DNA from: Anaeromyxobacter sp. Fw109-5
Lineage (GTDB): Bacteria; Myxococcota; Myxococcia; Myxococcales; Anaeromyxobacteraceae
DNA length: 64,000 nucleotides
Reading direction: 5' to 3'
NCBI RefSeq assembly: GCF_000017505.1
Contig: NC_009675.1
Coordinates: 2,108,001 to 2,172,000 of the forward strand
This document shows positions 30,288-37,234 of this stretch, in pieces (the first letter of the stretch is position 1; the number at the start of each line of letters is the position of its first letter). The translations under genes were made by a program, and so were the position numbers. The notes under the pieces are model-generated. The model made no database searches and was not told where the DNA came from. It saw only the letters and a list, made by a program, of their open reading frames with translations.

Positions 30288-30359
<72 letters not shown>

Positions 30360-30364
30360 TGAAG

Positions 30365-30401
30365 ACGGGAGCTCAGCCGCGCGCTGAGTTCCCGTTTTTT
30401 T
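30365..30401 (+). terminator. Intrinsic terminator after tRNA-Val
   Basis: A 12-bp stem (30365-30376 with 30384-30395, one G-T pair), a 7-base loop and a run of seven T at 30395-30401, six bases beyond the tRNA 3' end. Confidence 0.92.
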
Positions 30402-30625
30402 CCTTTGCGGGCTCCCCTGGGTAACCGGATGGGTAACGCGGTCAGCGCGACTGCTCCGCGAGCCACGCGTCGGGCGCCGCGGACGACCGCGGGACCTTCG
30501 CCGGGGACACATGGCCAGCCTCTCGGAACGCGAGAAGGGCCGCCCCGTCTCCGGAGCGGCCCCGTGCCGCCTGACCTGCGACTCAGCGGTTGTGGCGCGA
30601 GTGCGCCGATGTCATCGCTGCGAGA

Positions 30626-32059
30626 TCAAGGGACCGCGGTCAGCGTCAGGTAGTAGGGCAGCGCGCACCCCGTGGCCGCGGGGTCGGGAACGACGCGCAC
30701 CCAGTAATTCGTCCCTGGAGCGCGGCCGGACACCTCCGCTCGCCCGGTGCCGAACGCGATCCGCTCCTCCCCCGAACCTGCGTTCATCGCCCACAACTCG
30801 ACGGACAGTCCCGCATTGCTGGAGACGACGGTCAGTCCCGTGAAGTCCATGTGAGTCCCGATCACGTACATCCAGTCCTCGTCGTTCGGGACAGCCTCGA
30901 TCGTGGTGGTCGGCGCGGTGGGGACCGGCGTGTAGCCCCAGGCGGCGTTCGCAAGCGTGTTGTCCGTCTCGCGCATGTCGTCGCGGCAGATCGGCTCCAC
31001 GATGTTCACGGCGACCGTCATCGTGTCGGTGAGCCCCTCGTTCACGAGGCGCGCCGTCAGCATACAAACTGTAGGTGACGACGGGGCAGTCCAATAGAAG
31101 AGTCGCCAATAGTGGCCATCCGGTGCCGTCGGCAGAAGCTCGGTCTGCGGCGCAGCCTGGGACGTTTCCGTTCCGCCACAGTCGATCGACAGCGACGCGT
31201 CCGGATCGCTCGGTTGGGTCCCGACGTGGGCGAGATATTCAATCTGCAGATCCTGTCCCGTAGGCCAATCGATCTCGCACGACCAGTTTGCTCCGACCCT
31301 CCGGACGTTGCACACGTTGCTGGGGTTCGGGTTGCGGCGGTTCGCGACGGCAACATTCACGAAAGACGGGTTCGGAACGAAGTACCCGCTTATGTTTGCG
31401 GTGCCCAGGTCCGATACGACGATGACAAGGCTGATCGTGTCGGTCAGGGATCGCGACGACACGGTGAGTGTCAGCGTGCAGGCTCCCGCGGTGGTGGCCG
31501 ACCACTGGGTCGTGGCCGACGCCGGGGAGGAAAATGTACCAGAGCACCCCTCGCTCTGCGTCCAGGAGAACGTCACGGCGTCCGCGTCCGGGTCGACGGC
31601 CGCGGCTGTAAGCGTGATGGCCTCCGCGACGAACGGGCCCAAGTCGGAGATGGCGAGACTCGTGATGATCGGTCCGTGATCGCCCCCAGGGAGCGGGCCC
31701 GTGTCGTCCAGAATCTTGATGACGACCAGCGTGGAGTTGCCAGCCGTGATCGTCGCCTCGGTGGTGCCGGTGCCGACTAGCACCTCGTATGGCGGAGTGC
31801 CGGTATACGCGCGCGCCGTGAAGGAGTGCGTTCCGGCCGGTACCGATATTGCGCCGCCAAACGAACCGTCCGTGTTGAGCGTCAGATTGCTCACGATGTT
31901 CGCGGGCTGGATTTCAATCTCGACCCGCGAGAGAGTGGTCGTCGCGGTTGCGGCCTGCACGCGGATGTTTACCGATGGACTCGGCAATTCCGACTTCCGC
32001 GAACCGCATGCGAGTGCGACAAGTGCGCTACAGGCGACAGCGAGTGATCGAACGTTCAT
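30626..32059 (-). CDS. Putative lipoprotein with Ig/PKD-like domains
   Basis: 477 residues from ATG at 32059. A lipoprotein signal is visible: MNVRSLAVACSALVALAC with Cys18 as lipidation site. Residues ~35-110 form a carboxypeptidase-regulatory-like module (ITAGNSTLVVIKIL). A PKD/Ig-like domain follows (DPDADAVTFSWTQSEGCSGTF) with paired cysteines, then further beta-rich regions ending in TNYWVRVVPDP...YYLTLTAVP, like a pre-peptidase C-terminal domain. No enzyme motif is visible. The frame is open 330 bases further upstream, but that part is Arg/Pro-rich and lacks a signal. GC content and third-position bias are clearly lower than in neighbouring genes, and it sits next to a tRNA and repeats, so horizontal acquisition is plausible. 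Confidence 0.7.
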   Translation of the reverse strand: MNVRSLAVACSALVALACGSRKSELPSPSVNIRVQAATATTTLSRVEIEIQPANIVSNLTLNTDGSFGGAISVPAGTHSFTARAYTGTPPYEVLVGTGTTEATITAGNSTLVVIKILDDTGPLPGGDHGPIITSLAISDLGPFVAEAITLTAAAVDPDADAVTFSWTQSEGCSGTFSSPASATTQWSATTAGACTLTLTVSSRSLTDTISLVIVVSDLGTANISGYFVPNPSFVNVAVANRRNPNPSNVCNVRRVGANWSCEIDWPTGQDLQIEYLAHVGTQPSDPDASLSIDCGGTETSQAAPQTELLPTAPDGHYWRLFYWTAPSSPTVCMLTARLVNEGLTDTMTVAVNIVEPICRDDMRETDNTLANAAWGYTPVPTAPTTTIEAVPNDEDWMYVIGTHMDFTGLTVVSSNAGLSVELWAMNAGSGEERIAFGTGRAEVSGRAPGTNYWVRVVPDPAATGCALPYYLTLTAVP

Positions 32060-32432
32060 GCCGGCCCCCCAAGGCCCACCGGAGGGGGGTTCCGAGGGAC
32101 GTCCTCGGTGACGACCCACCAACGGCTTCGCGCCAGGCTGGCAGGGCGGCGCGCATGCGATCCACCGCTCGATGGGGTACTCGCGCTGAGCGTGAAGCGA
32201 GTCGGGCGTGGCGGCGCCAGCAACCCGTTGGCGCCTCGCGGGCAACTCCGTGCGGCGCGGCCCGGTTCGCTCCGGCGCCGAAAGTTTCCCGCAGAGGTTC
32301 CCTCGTGTACGGGAGCCGCCTCTTTTCCCAGCTCGACGCCGACGCGTGAGCTCGCGACCCGCGACCTGTGGCAATGAGCCACAGCGCAACCTCGTGAACG
32401 CAGGCGCTCGGCGTGATGGGATCGGGTGACTC
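32060..32432. other. Divergent intergenic region between lipoprotein and sensor-kinase genes
   Basis: 373 bases that must hold promoters for both flanking genes. A 7-bp hairpin with loop AATGA lies at 32366-32384 (CTGTGGC / GCCACAG), possibly an operator. No further gene or clear promoter could be assigned. Confidence 0.4.
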
Positions 32433-33821
32433 GTGGCCCGCCCGGAGGGGACACCTTCGCAGCTGCGCTGGCCGGGCCTTCCGGCGCGGATCGCGATCGG
32501 CTTCGGCGCCGCGCTCGTGAGCCTCGCCGCGGCTTCCGGCGCGTCTTACGTCGCGCTCTCGGCGCGCGACTCCGCGAGCGCGCTGGTCCGGCACACGGCC
32601 GAGGCGCAGCACGCGATCGAGGAGCTCGAGTCCGCCCTGCTCGTCTCGGACGTCGCGCTCAGGGCGCACGTGGAGGACCACGACCCGCGCCATCGAGACC
32701 TGTTTCAGAGCGGTTGGTCGAAGGTGCTGCCCGCGCTCGCGGACCTCCAGCGCATCTCCGAAGCGCACCCCGAGCAGAAGCCGCGCATCGCAAGGATCGC
32801 GGAGGCCGTGGACGAGATCCGCGCGGAGCAGGCCCGCCTCGTGGCGCTCGTCGACGCCGGCGATCTCCCCGGGGCTCGCGCCCTCGAGACGGCGAACGCC
32901 GCGAGGGAGGTCCTCGAGGGCGCGATGACCATGCTCGGTCGGATCGACGAGGACGAGCAACGCGCGCACGAGGGCCGCGAAGCCGCGTGGAAGCGGACCG
33001 TGCTCGTCTCCAACGCGGTGTTCGTCGCCGCGGTCGGCGTGCTCCTCGTGCTGATCCTCCTCGCCGCCCGGCTCGTGCGCGACGACATTCGCACGCGGGA
33101 GGCCGCGCGGGCGGACCGCGAGCGCACGCTCGTCGTGCAGCGGCGCCTCATGGCGGTGGTGAGCCACGACCTGCGGAACCCCCTCGGCGCCATCCTCACC
33201 GCGGCGTGGGCGCTCGCACGGCTCGAGCTACCGCCGAATGCGGGGGCGATGGTCCGGCGCATCGTCAGCTCGGGGCGGCGGATGGAGCGGCTGATCCGCG
33301 ATCTGCTGGACTGGAGCCGCTTGCAAGCCGGCGGCTCCGTCCCCATCGCCACCCGCGAGGCCGATCTGTTCGACGCGTGTCAGCGCATCACGGACGAGCT
33401 CCGGGATCGCGACGGGAAGCTCATCCACCTCGAGCGCGACGGTGACACGCGCGCCACGTTCGATCCGGAGCGCATCGAGCAGGTGGTCGGAAACCTGCTC
33501 TCGAACGCGCTCCGTTACGCGCCGCCCGGAACGACCGTGCTCGTGCGCGCAGTCGGCACCCCGCAGGAGGTCCGGCTCGAGGTGCACGACGAGGGTCCCG
33601 GGATCCCCTCCGAGGCGCAAGCCCGGATCTTCGAGCCGTTCCGGCAGGGGCCGAGCGGACACGGCACGGGGCTCGGCCTGGGGCTCTTCATCGTGCGATC
33701 GGTCGCCGAGGCGCACGGGGGCCGCGTCCACCTGGAGTCCGCGCCGGGCAAGACGTCGTTCGTCGTCCACCTCCCGCGGTGTGTCGCCGCCCTGGGAGGC
33801 GAGGGCGGCGCGACCCGCTGA
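32433..33821 (+). CDS. Sensor histidine kinase with CHASE3-like periplasmic domain
   Basis: 462 residues from GTG 32433. TM1 (~18-42) and TM2 (~188-210) enclose a helical, charged ~145-residue region with the look of a CHASE3 four-helix domain (RDSASALVRHTAEAQHAIEEL). HisKA follows, with H245 in VVSHDLRNPLG, then N-box NLLSNALRYAP, G1 DEGPGI, and GTGLGLGLFIV. All kinase residues are intact. There is no response regulator next to it, so it is an orphan kinase. It is transcribed towards the octahaem cytochrome gene 364 bases downstream, which makes a redox or respiratory signal an attractive guess, no more. Confidence 0.9.
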   Translation: MARPEGTPSQLRWPGLPARIAIGFGAALVSLAAASGASYVALSARDSASALVRHTAEAQHAIEELESALLVSDVALRAHVEDHDPRHRDLFQSGWSKVLPALADLQRISEAHPEQKPRIARIAEAVDEIRAEQARLVALVDAGDLPGARALETANAAREVLEGAMTMLGRIDEDEQRAHEGREAAWKRTVLVSNAVFVAAVGVLLVLILLAARLVRDDIRTREAARADRERTLVVQRRLMAVVSHDLRNPLGAILTAAWALARLELPPNAGAMVRRIVSSGRRMERLIRDLLDWSRLQAGGSVPIATREADLFDACQRITDELRDRDGKLIHLERDGDTRATFDPERIEQVVGNLLSNALRYAPPGTTVLVRAVGTPQEVRLEVHDEGPGIPSEAQARIFEPFRQGPSGHGTGLGLGLFIVRSVAEAHGGRVHLESAPGKTSFVVHLPRCVAALGGEGGATR

Positions 33822-34185
33822 CGGCCGAGGCCACGGATCCCCCGGCTGCGCGGGTGATCCGGTGGCCGATCCCGGAACGCTCCGTTAACGCGTTAGCACC
33901 CCACGTAACGCCGAAAAGTTAACACTCTCGGGAGGATGCGTGTCCCGTGGACGCGGGTCGCACCGCCGGGTGAGGCAGTTGCCCCACCTCGAGCGGCGAT
34001 GGGGGAATTCCCCCATCCTTCACTCATCGTGACCCGCCGGTCTTCCGGTTCGCCCGCGGTCCGACACGGCGCCGCTCCGGGCACGCGCCGTGCTCTCTCC
34101 CGCTCCGCGCGGATCGTGGTCTTCACGAACCGTGTCGAGAACCGGGACCAGGGCCGGCGTTTTGCCGGCTCCAACGGAGGGAGCA
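33822..34185. other. Intergenic region upstream of the octahaem cytochrome gene
   Basis: 364 bases without a coding frame of convincing quality. It contains AT-richer patches with repeated GTTAAC/GTTAGC-type words at 33882-33930 and the 20-bp palindrome at 33998-34017, and ends with GGAGGG, the ribosome-binding site of the cytochrome gene. I see no clean -35/-10 pair. Confidence 0.45.
33998..34017. promoter_or_regulatory. Perfect 20-bp palindrome, candidate operator
   Basis: GATGGGGGAATTCCCCCATC reads identically on both strands. It has no loop, so it suits a dimeric DNA-binding protein better than an RNA hairpin, and it lies 168 bases before the cytochrome start. The binding protein is unknown. 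Confidence 0.45.
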
Positions 34186-37158
34186 GTGAACACACACGTT
34201 AACGCTCGGATGCGGACGGCGATCGCCGTCCTCGCCGCGCTGGGCTTCGCGTGCCTCGGGGAGCTGCCCGAGCCGCCGCAGACCGGCGAGAAGCAGAAGT
34301 CCACCTACCACTCGTCCGACGCGAACGGCGCCATCCCGCTGCGCGACGCGGCGGGCGCCACCATCGCCCGCGGCTCGACCACGCCGTTCAGCCCCGAGCA
34401 GACCTGCGGCGGCTGCCACGACACCGCGGTGATCACGCGCGGCTACCACTTCCAGCAGGGACGCACCGGTCCGGACAACAACTTGCTCGTCTCCGACAGC
34501 TACAACCCGCAGAAGCCGTGGCTGCTGTCGCCCGGCATGTACGGCAAGACTTGACCCCCGTCGTCTGACTCGAGCCAGTTGGCTCGAAAGAGCAACACCA
34601 GCACGACGGCGATGGACAAGACCTCCTACTTCTTCACCTTCCAGTGCGGCATCTGCCACCCGGGCGGCGGCCCCACGCAGTACGACCGCGACGGCCGCAA
34701 GTACTTCGACGGCACGAACTTCGGCTACGGCGGCGGCGTGGCCGCGCTTCCCCCCGAGGCCAAGCTGGACGGCGACTACGGCTTCATCGTCCCCAAGGAC
34801 TCGGCGGACGGTACCGTCCTCGCCGGCACCCCGGTGCTCGCGAACGGCTGGAAGAAGAACGGCGTCCTCGAGCCCGACTGCCTCCTCTGCCACCTGAGCG
34901 GCTACAGCTGGAAGAACCGCGCGGCGACGCTCGTCGGCGGCCAGGGGATCACCGGCGTCGCGGCGTTCAAGGTCGCGCCGGCCATGGGCGCGGGCTTCGG
35001 CAGCGTCACCGTGGCGGCCGCTCCGGCCTTCCCGCCCACGGCCTCCGCGGTCGGTCCGGTCGACTACGAGCTCGGCATCGCAGCGGGTACGCTCGAGGTG
35101 AACGGGAGCAACCAGCTGCAGATCAGGCTCGGCAAGGTCGGTCCCACGCCCGAGGCGAACTGCCGGGGCTGCCACTCGACCCCCGACACCAAGAAGTCTG
35201 GCCGCACGCTCCTCGATGCGACCGACGTGCACAAGCTGAACGCGGTGAACTGCACGGCCTGTCACACGAATGCCGGTAACGCGCTCGAGCACCAGTTCGG
35301 CAAGGGCGACGTGACCATCGGCTCGGTCCGGGACGACCTCGACAACACCGTCCGGTCCTGCGCGGACTGCCACCTGAACGGCGCCGCCCCCGCTGGGCTC
35401 ATCGCGCCGGATCCCACGCGTGCCCACGCCTCCATCCCGAGCCTCCACTTCTCGGCGATGAAGTGCCAGGTCTGCCACATCCGCTACATGGAGGACGATC
35501 CCGTGACCGCCGGGATGCAGGTCCCCGAGCTCATCGTCGAGATGTCGACGAACGGCACGCAGACCATCTCGACCTGGGAGAAGTACTTCAAGACGAACCC
35601 GCTCGATCCGTCGCAGAACGACGCCGCCCTGTCGGCCGTGACGAGCACGTACCGCTGGTACCCCGCGATCCGCTGGTACAAGGGGAAGCTCCAGACGGTG
35701 AAGCCGCTCCTCACCGCCTACTACGGCGACTGGATCAGCGGCACGGGCGACACCGCCATCATCCGGCCGATCCCGCTGCGCATGGTGCGCAAGGCGCTCG
35801 GCGACAAGTACGGCGTCGGCACGCCGCGTCTCGGCACGCTGCCGGTCACGCCCGGCGGCCTGGACCCGGCGAACCCGATCCCGTTCAAGAAGGCCGAGAT
35901 CAAGGCGCTGCTCGAGGCCATCGGGAACGCGAACGACACGGCGAACCCGGATCCTGCGGCGAACAACGACATCGCCGTCCGGCCGGTGCTCATCCGCGCG
36001 GAGAAGGTCTACTACCTGAACGACGTGGGCGAGGTGGAGTTCTTCGAGAGCGCGGTGGCCGAGTCGCACGACTTCGCCATCAACCACAACGTCGTGCCGA
36101 AGCGTGACCCGGCGAACCCGATCCTCAAGCCCGGTCCGTACGGCGCGGGTGGCTGCACCGACTGCCACTCCCCCAGCTCGACGTTCTTCTTCGGCAAGCA
36201 GCTGATCGAGCCCGCCGAGTACGAGTTCCTCGACGAGCACGGCACGCAGCCGAACCCGAACGCGGGCAAGCCGCACTACGTCCCGCACTACGTGGCGATG
36301 GGCTACAGCGACTACAAGGTCGCGAGCCTCACGGGCGACCGCATCGCGGTCAACGTGCGCGTCCTCGGCTGGGGTCCGGGCAGCACCGTCACCGGTGACG
36401 GCCTCGACTGCGGCTTCGGCGGCGGCCTGTGCGTCACCACCGTGGCCGAGAGCGGCACCCTCGCGCTGACGGCCAACCCCGGCGTCGGTGCGACCGTGAG
36501 CTCCTGGGACGGCTGCGCGCCGTCGGCGGACAAGCTCACCTGTTCGCTCTCCGTCGGCGGCGCGTCCGGCCTGGGCTCGACGAAGGTCGTGGTCGTGACC
36601 TTCGGTCAGCCGGCGTCCACGCCGATGCCGACCAGCTCGGGCGTCGCCCTGAGCGTGATCGGCTCCGGCTGGGGCAACGTGAGCGGCGCGGGCCTCAACT
36701 GCAACATCGGCTCGCAGGGCGCCTGCGGCGCCGAGCTCGCGAACGGCACGCTCGTGACGCTCGTCGCGACGCCTGACCGGTACACCTGGGTCGAGAGCTG
36801 GACGGGCTGCACGCCGGACGCGGTCGATCCCAACAAGTGCACCGTCAGCGTGAGCGGCGTGAACGCCGTCAGCGCGCTCCTGTCGAACGGCTCCGGCGGC
36901 GGCCCTTACTCGCCGACCCAGTCGCTCATGGTGCGCGTGTTCGGACCGGGGACCATCACGGGCCCCGGGCTCAGCTGCCGCGCCGAGAACGGCGGCTGCC
37001 GCATCGACGTGCCCACCGGTGACACGGTGACGCTGACGGCGACCGGCGACTCCGGCGCCACGTTCGCCGGGTTCGCGGGGTGCACCTCGACCACGGGGAG
37101 CACCTGCAGCATCACGATGACGGAGCCGTCCGCCGTCGTCGGCGAGTTCACGCGGTGA
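34186..37158 (+). CDS. Octahaem c-type cytochrome with probable selenocysteine at in-frame TGA
   Basis: Reading the TGA at 34552-34554 as selenocysteine gives one 990-residue protein with Sec123. GTG 34186 follows GGAGGG at ideal spacing. The N-terminus is hydrophobic and ends in FACLGE, a possible though non-ideal lipobox. CXXCH motifs: CGGCH before the TGA, then CGICH, CLLCH, CRGCH, CTACH, CADCH, CQVCH and CTDCH after it, eight in all. The frame is the same on both sides of the TGA, and the junction ([19 protein letters not shown]) is continuous with no second ribosome-binding site. From ~720 onward come three tandem ~75-residue repeats, each with four cysteines (G-x-V-x-G-x-G-L-x-C ... W-x-G-C). 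The family serves extracellular or periplasmic electron transfer. Alternatives: a nonsense mutation, or a second protein starting at TTG 34579; that would lack a signal peptide and hence haem attachment. Confidence 0.8.
34552..34587 (+). promoter_or_regulatory. TGA codon with SECIS-like hairpin
   Basis: TGA 34552-34554 is followed after 15 bases by a perfect 7-bp stem (34570-34576 with 34581-34587) closing the tetraloop AGTT. The loop starts 22 bases after the TGA and has G as its second base, which agrees with the published bacterial SECIS model as I recall it (loop 16-37 bases downstream, G in the first two loop positions). Codons here include ACT, TCT, GCT and CGA, rare elsewhere in this gene, as expected if RNA pairing constrains the sequence. 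Confidence 0.65.
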
Positions 37159-37202: not shown

Positions 37203-37234
37203 GCCCGGCCGGCATCCGCCGGCCGGGCTTTTTT
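37203..37234 (+). terminator. Intrinsic terminator of the cytochrome gene
   Basis: An 11-bp perfect stem (37203-37213 with 37218-37228), loop ATCC and six T at 37229-37234. It isolates the cytochrome gene from thrS. Confidence 0.92.

Follow-up and report, generated by a model that had tools for sequence, protein, structure and literature searches.

A probable selenocysteine-containing octahaem cytochrome of Anaeromyxobacter sp. Fw109-5, distantly related to octahaem tetrathionate reductase

The first proposal of selenocysteine (Sec) for a multihaem cytochrome dates from 2007 and concerns ExtKL, no SECIS being detected at the time (PMC1914089), and the in-frame UGA of this multihaem c-type cytochrome has been described elsewhere (PMC5877670). 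A 2026 review lists ExtKL, the GSU2204 family, UshA-like proteins and one GenBank-annotated octahaem selenoprotein of the TIGR04315 type, WP_331457571.1 (PMC13188914), the last of which could be a close cousin of the family that is the subject of this work. The presence of Sec in multihaem cytochromes as such is, therefore, an earlier prediction. The octahaem protein of Anaeromyxobacter sp. Fw109-5 considered here is described by no NCBIfam model, its group is absent from the family models and listings that were searched, and a literature search, outside which most subscription journals lay, found no paper naming the family as a selenoprotein; the sub-family appears to be unlisted.

The gene, its internal UGA and its surroundings

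The gene lies in a 64-kb stretch of DNA that was analysed as a whole (the window; all coordinates are counted from its first nucleotide). From the GTG at 34186 to 37158 the frame codes for 990 residues, with a single internal TGA (34552, codon 123), the start, the frame and the position of the TGA being exactly those given by a previous, sequence-only reading of the window. That reading had also placed one haem motif before the TGA and motifs 2-8 after it, which is borne out by the distribution of the eight CxxCH motifs (one and seven), and had claimed that there is no second ribosome-binding site; indeed, the first start codon past the TGA, the TTG at 34579, has no Shine-Dalgarno sequence and lies within the loop of the hairpin listed below. 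The true stop codon of the gene is also TGA, and is an internal control in that TGA does terminate translation in this gene. The features are the following:

34176..34183, + strand: strong Shine-Dalgarno sequence, GGAGGGAG, for the GTG start (from the sequence)
34186..37158, + strand: coding sequence of 990 amino acids with predicted Sec123, comprising signal peptide, octahaem core (about residues 46-717) and C-terminal beta-repeat region
34405..34419, + strand: haem motif 1, CGGCH, residues 74-78
34552..34554, + strand: UGA, predicted Sec123 (from the same column in homologues)
34570..34587, + strand: predicted SECIS hairpin, UCGAGCC-AGUU-GGCUCGA (from comparison of homologues)
34645..34659, + strand: haem motif 2, CGICH, which by analogy with octahaem tetrathionate reductase (OTR) would bind the catalytic haem
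34879..34893, + strand: haem motif 3
35161..35175, + strand: haem motif 4
35185..35196, + strand: D334-T-K-K337, K337 aligning with OTR Lys153 (profile-profile alignment)
35251..35265, + strand: haem motif 5
35359..35373, + strand: haem motif 6
35464..35478, + strand: haem motif 7
36154..36168, + strand: haem motif 8
36340..37155, + strand: C-terminal repeats, the last a divergent InlB B-repeat (PF18998)
37156..37158, + strand: true stop codon, TGA
37203..37234, + strand: GC-rich inverted repeat followed by a T-run, terminator-like (from the sequence)

A histidine kinase gene is found upstream and thrS downstream, with no ars or thiol genes adjoining. The Sec gene and the kinase gene, of the CHASE3 type, together occupy 30288-37158 of the window, between tRNA-Val and thrS, and the Sec gene is absent from most other genomes of the genus Anaeromyxobacter. 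Other, different histidine-kinase-like ORFs adjoin the Sec octahaem gene at two further loci (L046 and L159).

Conservation of the UGA and of its hairpin

When one genome per species was scanned, 23 loci were obtained. In the alignment column of residue 123, 12 distinct loci have the TGA (the window, L012, L013/L046, L041, L042, L047, L048, L050, L054, L055, L057 and L058), the hosts being Anaeromyxobacteraceae, Geomonas, Citrifermentans and bins named Deferrisomatales, Clostridiales, Deltaproteobacteria, Desulfobulbaceae, Syntrophobacterales and Eisenbacteria. In a further scan of 141 Geobacterales genomes, all loci examined (L097-L118) have the TGA, in a GxWU/GKWU-type motif. After removal of duplicates, the residue-123 column holds TGA in at least 34 genes of 32 genomes, i.e. 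the window gene, two homologues from its own bacterial family, and 31 others found in Geobacterales and in further phyla (among them, from the Geobacterales scan, L098, L100-L118 and two further paralogues beside them). The nearest homologues with TGA at this place belong to G011 (same family, 69% identical) and to Anaeromyxobacter soli (G006; same genus, 54%), and the protein sequence is conserved both N- and C-terminal of the TGA. No homologue was found among plasmid records. Because the TGA recurs in independently sequenced genomes, it is not a sequencing error, which the sequence-only reading had named as a ground for refutation. The expectation of Cys or TGA at residue 123 of homologues held in part: besides the TGA members, four have Cys (L053, L060, L063 and L067), but ten have S, Q, Y, F, L or A, so that the fold does not depend on Sec, and catalysis may not involve it in every member.

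In a tree of 30 members, six changes of the Sec label are needed. The window protein forms one group with Sec proteins from Anaeromyxobacteraceae and from Geobacteraceae (support 100/99), and the nesting of the latter inside a group containing the former suggests transfer. Most of the deep branches contain Sec, so that the simplest reading would be that the ancestor had it and that it was lost several times. Gene clusters of Geobacterales (L130, L131 and L132) carry up to two different Sec octahaem genes, of the types GSWUPPSARQLA and GKWU[SP]PSLRQVA, beside 8- or 12-haem cytochromes.

The hairpin begins 15 nt past the TGA and has a 7-bp stem and an AGUU loop that starts at 22 nt, just as had been described. 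Considered in one genome alone it is weak: its fold z-score in Fw109-5 is -1.67, and of the 1020 TGA trinucleotides in the 64-kb window, 8 are followed by a 7-bp stem whose loop has G as its first or second base, which makes it a roughly 1-in-100 feature that is not convincing. What lifts it above chance is that TGA and hairpin alike are conserved in the at least 34 genes. The hairpin is present in all Sec members. Its loop reads AGUU, or in a few of them AGGU, and starts 22 or 16 nt past the TGA; the shorter spacing occurs where two codons are deleted, the hairpin being 6 nt closer, yet kept. The same stem, with a 5-nt loop, is found in L050. Among 21 distinct hairpins, 89% of cells pair and double changes occur in five of the seven stem pairs (GAC-AGUU-GUC replaces GCC-AGUU-GGC in L118); the covariation score is 0.396 versus a shuffled mean of 0.122, with none of 500 shuffles as high, and does not exceed 0.186 when the hairpin partner is slid. 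Homologues without TGA have no hairpin. The RNA signal tracks the TGA and not the protein. The unusual codons remarked on earlier are real, in that TTG (2 of 68 Leu codons in the whole gene), GCT (4 of 101 Ala) and CGA (1 of 33 Arg, that of the hairpin being the only one) are rare, and are found here because the RNA structure demands them. An Rfam search of the region returned chance matches only, none at E<=1.

The Fw109-5 genome (5.28 Mb, one contig) was searched for the Sec machinery. Matches were found for selA (545 bits), selB (325 bits) and selD (397 bits), the last of which itself contains an in-frame TGA. A tRNA-Sec (selC) with anticodon UCA was recognized with ARAGORN as well as with the Rfam model (75 bits), so that all four genes to which the sequence-only reading had pointed are present. 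SelA is found in all nine further Sec-member genomes tested, and also in the three non-Sec genomes tested. On this computational evidence, the insertion of Sec at UGA 123 is very probable.

Two other fates of the UGA have to be weighed. A nonsense mutation or pseudogene, or a two-gene operon with TTG 34579 as the second start, would agree with the in-frame position of the TGA and with the fact that the gene also ends in a TGA that does stop translation; this is very improbable when the same TGA is found in genes of several phyla with protein conservation on both sides of it, and when the second product, begun in a hairpin loop with no Shine-Dalgarno sequence, would consist of haem motifs deprived of a signal peptide. 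UGA readthrough occurs to some extent in bacteria, and a near-cognate tRNA (e.g. that for Trp or Cys) might insert its amino acid in place of Sec, but a covarying hairpin at SECIS distance, confined to TGA members, the complete machinery in the genome and SelA in every Sec-member genome tested leave this reading with scarcely any probability. The earlier interpretation of the gene as encoding a Sec octahaem cytochrome is supported, none of the three grounds for its refutation (missing sel genes, a sequencing error, homologues with neither Cys nor TGA) having refuted it, and is extended here by the likeness to OTR, the wide spread of Sec in the family and the sisters fused to a quinol-type cytochrome b.

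Kinship with OTR and the place of Sec

The window protein scores 19.2 bits with TIGR04315 against a cut-off of 375 bits, which makes it a distant OTR homologue and not a member of TIGR04315. Its own structure model (pLDDT 62) gave no fold match, and the relative L057 was placed first for AlphaFold in its stead (pLDDT 73.6, pTM 0.76), the structure models being of middling quality and holding no haems. For the L057 model, 1sp3 (OTR) is the only significant Foldseek match in the PDB (E 8.3e-5); the VIA comparison with 1sp3 gives Z 8.7 over 316 aligned residues with rmsd 4.6, the next match having Z 4.3, and no multihaem fold besides OTR is in the VIA match list, which leaves room for others outside it. 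At the sequence level, hhalign of the family profile against 25 TIGR04315 members (99.4%, E 9.9e-22) covers haems 2-7 only, so that Sec and the OTR active-site loop are matched by position and not residue by residue. OTR D150 and K153 are aligned to D334 and K337, and K337 is nearly invariant in the family; Lys153 of OTR is reportedly an unusual ligand of the active-site haem. A profile search of PDB sequences gave NrfA-type and similar matches only, at the haem motifs. Fold and profile together make a distant homology between the octahaem core and OTR highly probable. A residue-level match of Sec123 with the active-site Cys of OTR was tried by hand and by profile and rejected, the haem 1-2 segments being too different in length. 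None of the Geobacterales OTR matches listed has an internal stop. Haem motif 1 of L047 is CxxxxCH (CGLSGCH) instead of CxxCH, and is similar in L067 and several Geobacterales members.

The PF18998-type repeat region is also present in other large proteins of the same genome, and the A. soli homologue ends with a GGCG-hydrophobic-Arg tail, which matches sorting models below cut-off only. The InlB-type repeats and this tail suggest surface display, and the Fw109-5 protein probably resides on the outer surface of the cell or else in the periplasm.

Several relatives are larger assemblies or stand in other gene settings. L057 contains a TIGR01583 domain (134.9 bits; cut-off 115.85) and PF01292 is found in L057 and L062. 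In L051 (9418-11691), the octahaem core, with Phe at the Sec position, carries a C-terminal thioredoxin domain and is followed by a ResA/DsbE-like gene, while L048 (814-5253) has 16 haem motifs, i.e. a Sec octahaem module and a second, OTR-like one (TIGR04315 110 bits, below cut-off). The surroundings of three octahaem genes form a possible metalloid gene set: ArsR-octahaem-ArsP-methyltransferase-SBF/ACR3-like-DsbD in L053 (9486-15757; Cys), ArsR, LMWPc and DsbD in L054 (6460-14828; Sec), and Trx-like, DsbD-like and ArsP-like ORFs, so named by resemblance only, in L063 (115-4230; Cys). This context is that of a different clade from the window gene, which stands alone. For the relatives, the fusions and the ars/thiol neighbours point to a possible enzyme that reduces a chalcogen or metalloid compound with electrons from quinol.

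A mechanism can be proposed in which UGA 123 would be decoded as Sec by SelB and tRNA-Sec through the hairpin 15 nt downstream, giving one exported octahaem c-type cytochrome. Sec123, on the loop that joins haem 1 to haem 2, would sit within or next to the pocket of a catalytic haem that would have Lys as ligand, in the manner of the OTR active-site loop; we lean slightly towards this catalytic placement. There, a single selenolate would bind or reduce the substrate with electrons supplied by the haems, and, since no partner Cys is near Sec, a lone selenolate acting with haem is likelier than a selenenylsulfide switch. In several relatives, the formate-dehydrogenase-gamma-type cytochrome b would link the core to the quinone pool. 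Our best guess for the substrate is sulfur, selenium or arsenic compounds. The explanation as a whole, namely an exported octahaem protein decoded with Sec, with an OTR-like core and Sec by the catalytic haem, is held with good confidence. More tentative, and put at somewhat less than an even chance, is that these proteins represent a new class of selenoenzyme, an OTR-like octahaem reductase with Sec working at or ligating a c-type haem, which a broad family of anaerobes would have inherited from its ancestor, with repeated losses of Sec and an expansion in Geobacterales.

Sec123 could have a different role. Only six His residues outside CxxCH, together with Lys135 and Lys337, are (nearly) invariant for eight haems, and thiolate-ligated haems are found in TsdA and SoxA, so that Sec might be the axial ligand of a selenolate-ligated haem c, tuning its potential instead of facing a substrate; the F, L or A found at position 123 in relatives that keep the haem motifs makes this improbable. 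The protein might also be an electron conduit to extracellular metal oxides, where Sec would merely anchor metals or mineral surfaces. Several hosts are metal reducers, surface-type repeats are found at the C-terminus of both the window protein and the Geomonas proteins, and Sec paralogues adjoin 12-haem cytochromes in Geobacterales, but the OTR-type fold with a conserved Lys aligned to that of the OTR active site, and relatives fused to cytochrome b or thioredoxin or set among ars/thiol genes, speak against this, and a conduit role is judged unlikely.

If Sec does act at the catalytic haem, its chemistry and that of haem c would be united within a single active site, a pairing new to respiratory reductases. 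In Geobacterales and Anaeromyxobacteraceae, which are model metal reducers, the genes of this Sec cytochrome family are likely annotated as truncated gene pairs, so that the family may have been overlooked or misinterpreted when the cytochromes of these organisms were catalogued and their mutants screened, and part of their respiration may be constrained by the availability of selenium. The covarying hairpin, in turn, offers a clean natural set for learning the requirements of bacterial SECIS elements.

Comparison with known systems

ExtKL (NF040886; GSU2937-2936 of Geobacter) resembles the window protein in being a multihaem c-type cytochrome with an in-frame UGA, but has five haems and its Sec follows all of them, in IPDGUPTPNR. 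Membership was considered and rejected: the window protein has no NF040886 match at E<=0.1, whereas a true Citrifermentans ExtKL scores 580 bits, and BLAST between ExtKL and the window protein (E 0.017) aligns haem motifs only. An ext-like cluster (rhodanese, porin, 12-haem, 10-haem) is found in Geomonas limicola (L096, 3467-9323), with no extKL between the porin and 12-haem genes. The UshA-like (NF041198) and GSU2204 (NF041027) families are listed selenoproteins with CxxCH or related motifs; the former matches the window protein with 17.2 bits versus 275, over the CxxCH stretch only, and for the latter no match was reported. The gamma subunit of formate dehydrogenase (FdnI; TIGR01583) corresponds to the C-terminal domain of relatives such as L057 and is absent from the window protein. 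There is, finally, a likeness with Shewanella OTR (PDB 1sp3), which shares the predicted fold over the whole core, the order of haems 2-7, the Asp-x-x-Lys after haem 4 and the distal His pattern, including an NHxVAP-type motif before haem 8, and from which the window family differs in its CHPGGG haem-2 motif, its longer haem 1-2 segment and the GxWU loop with Sec.
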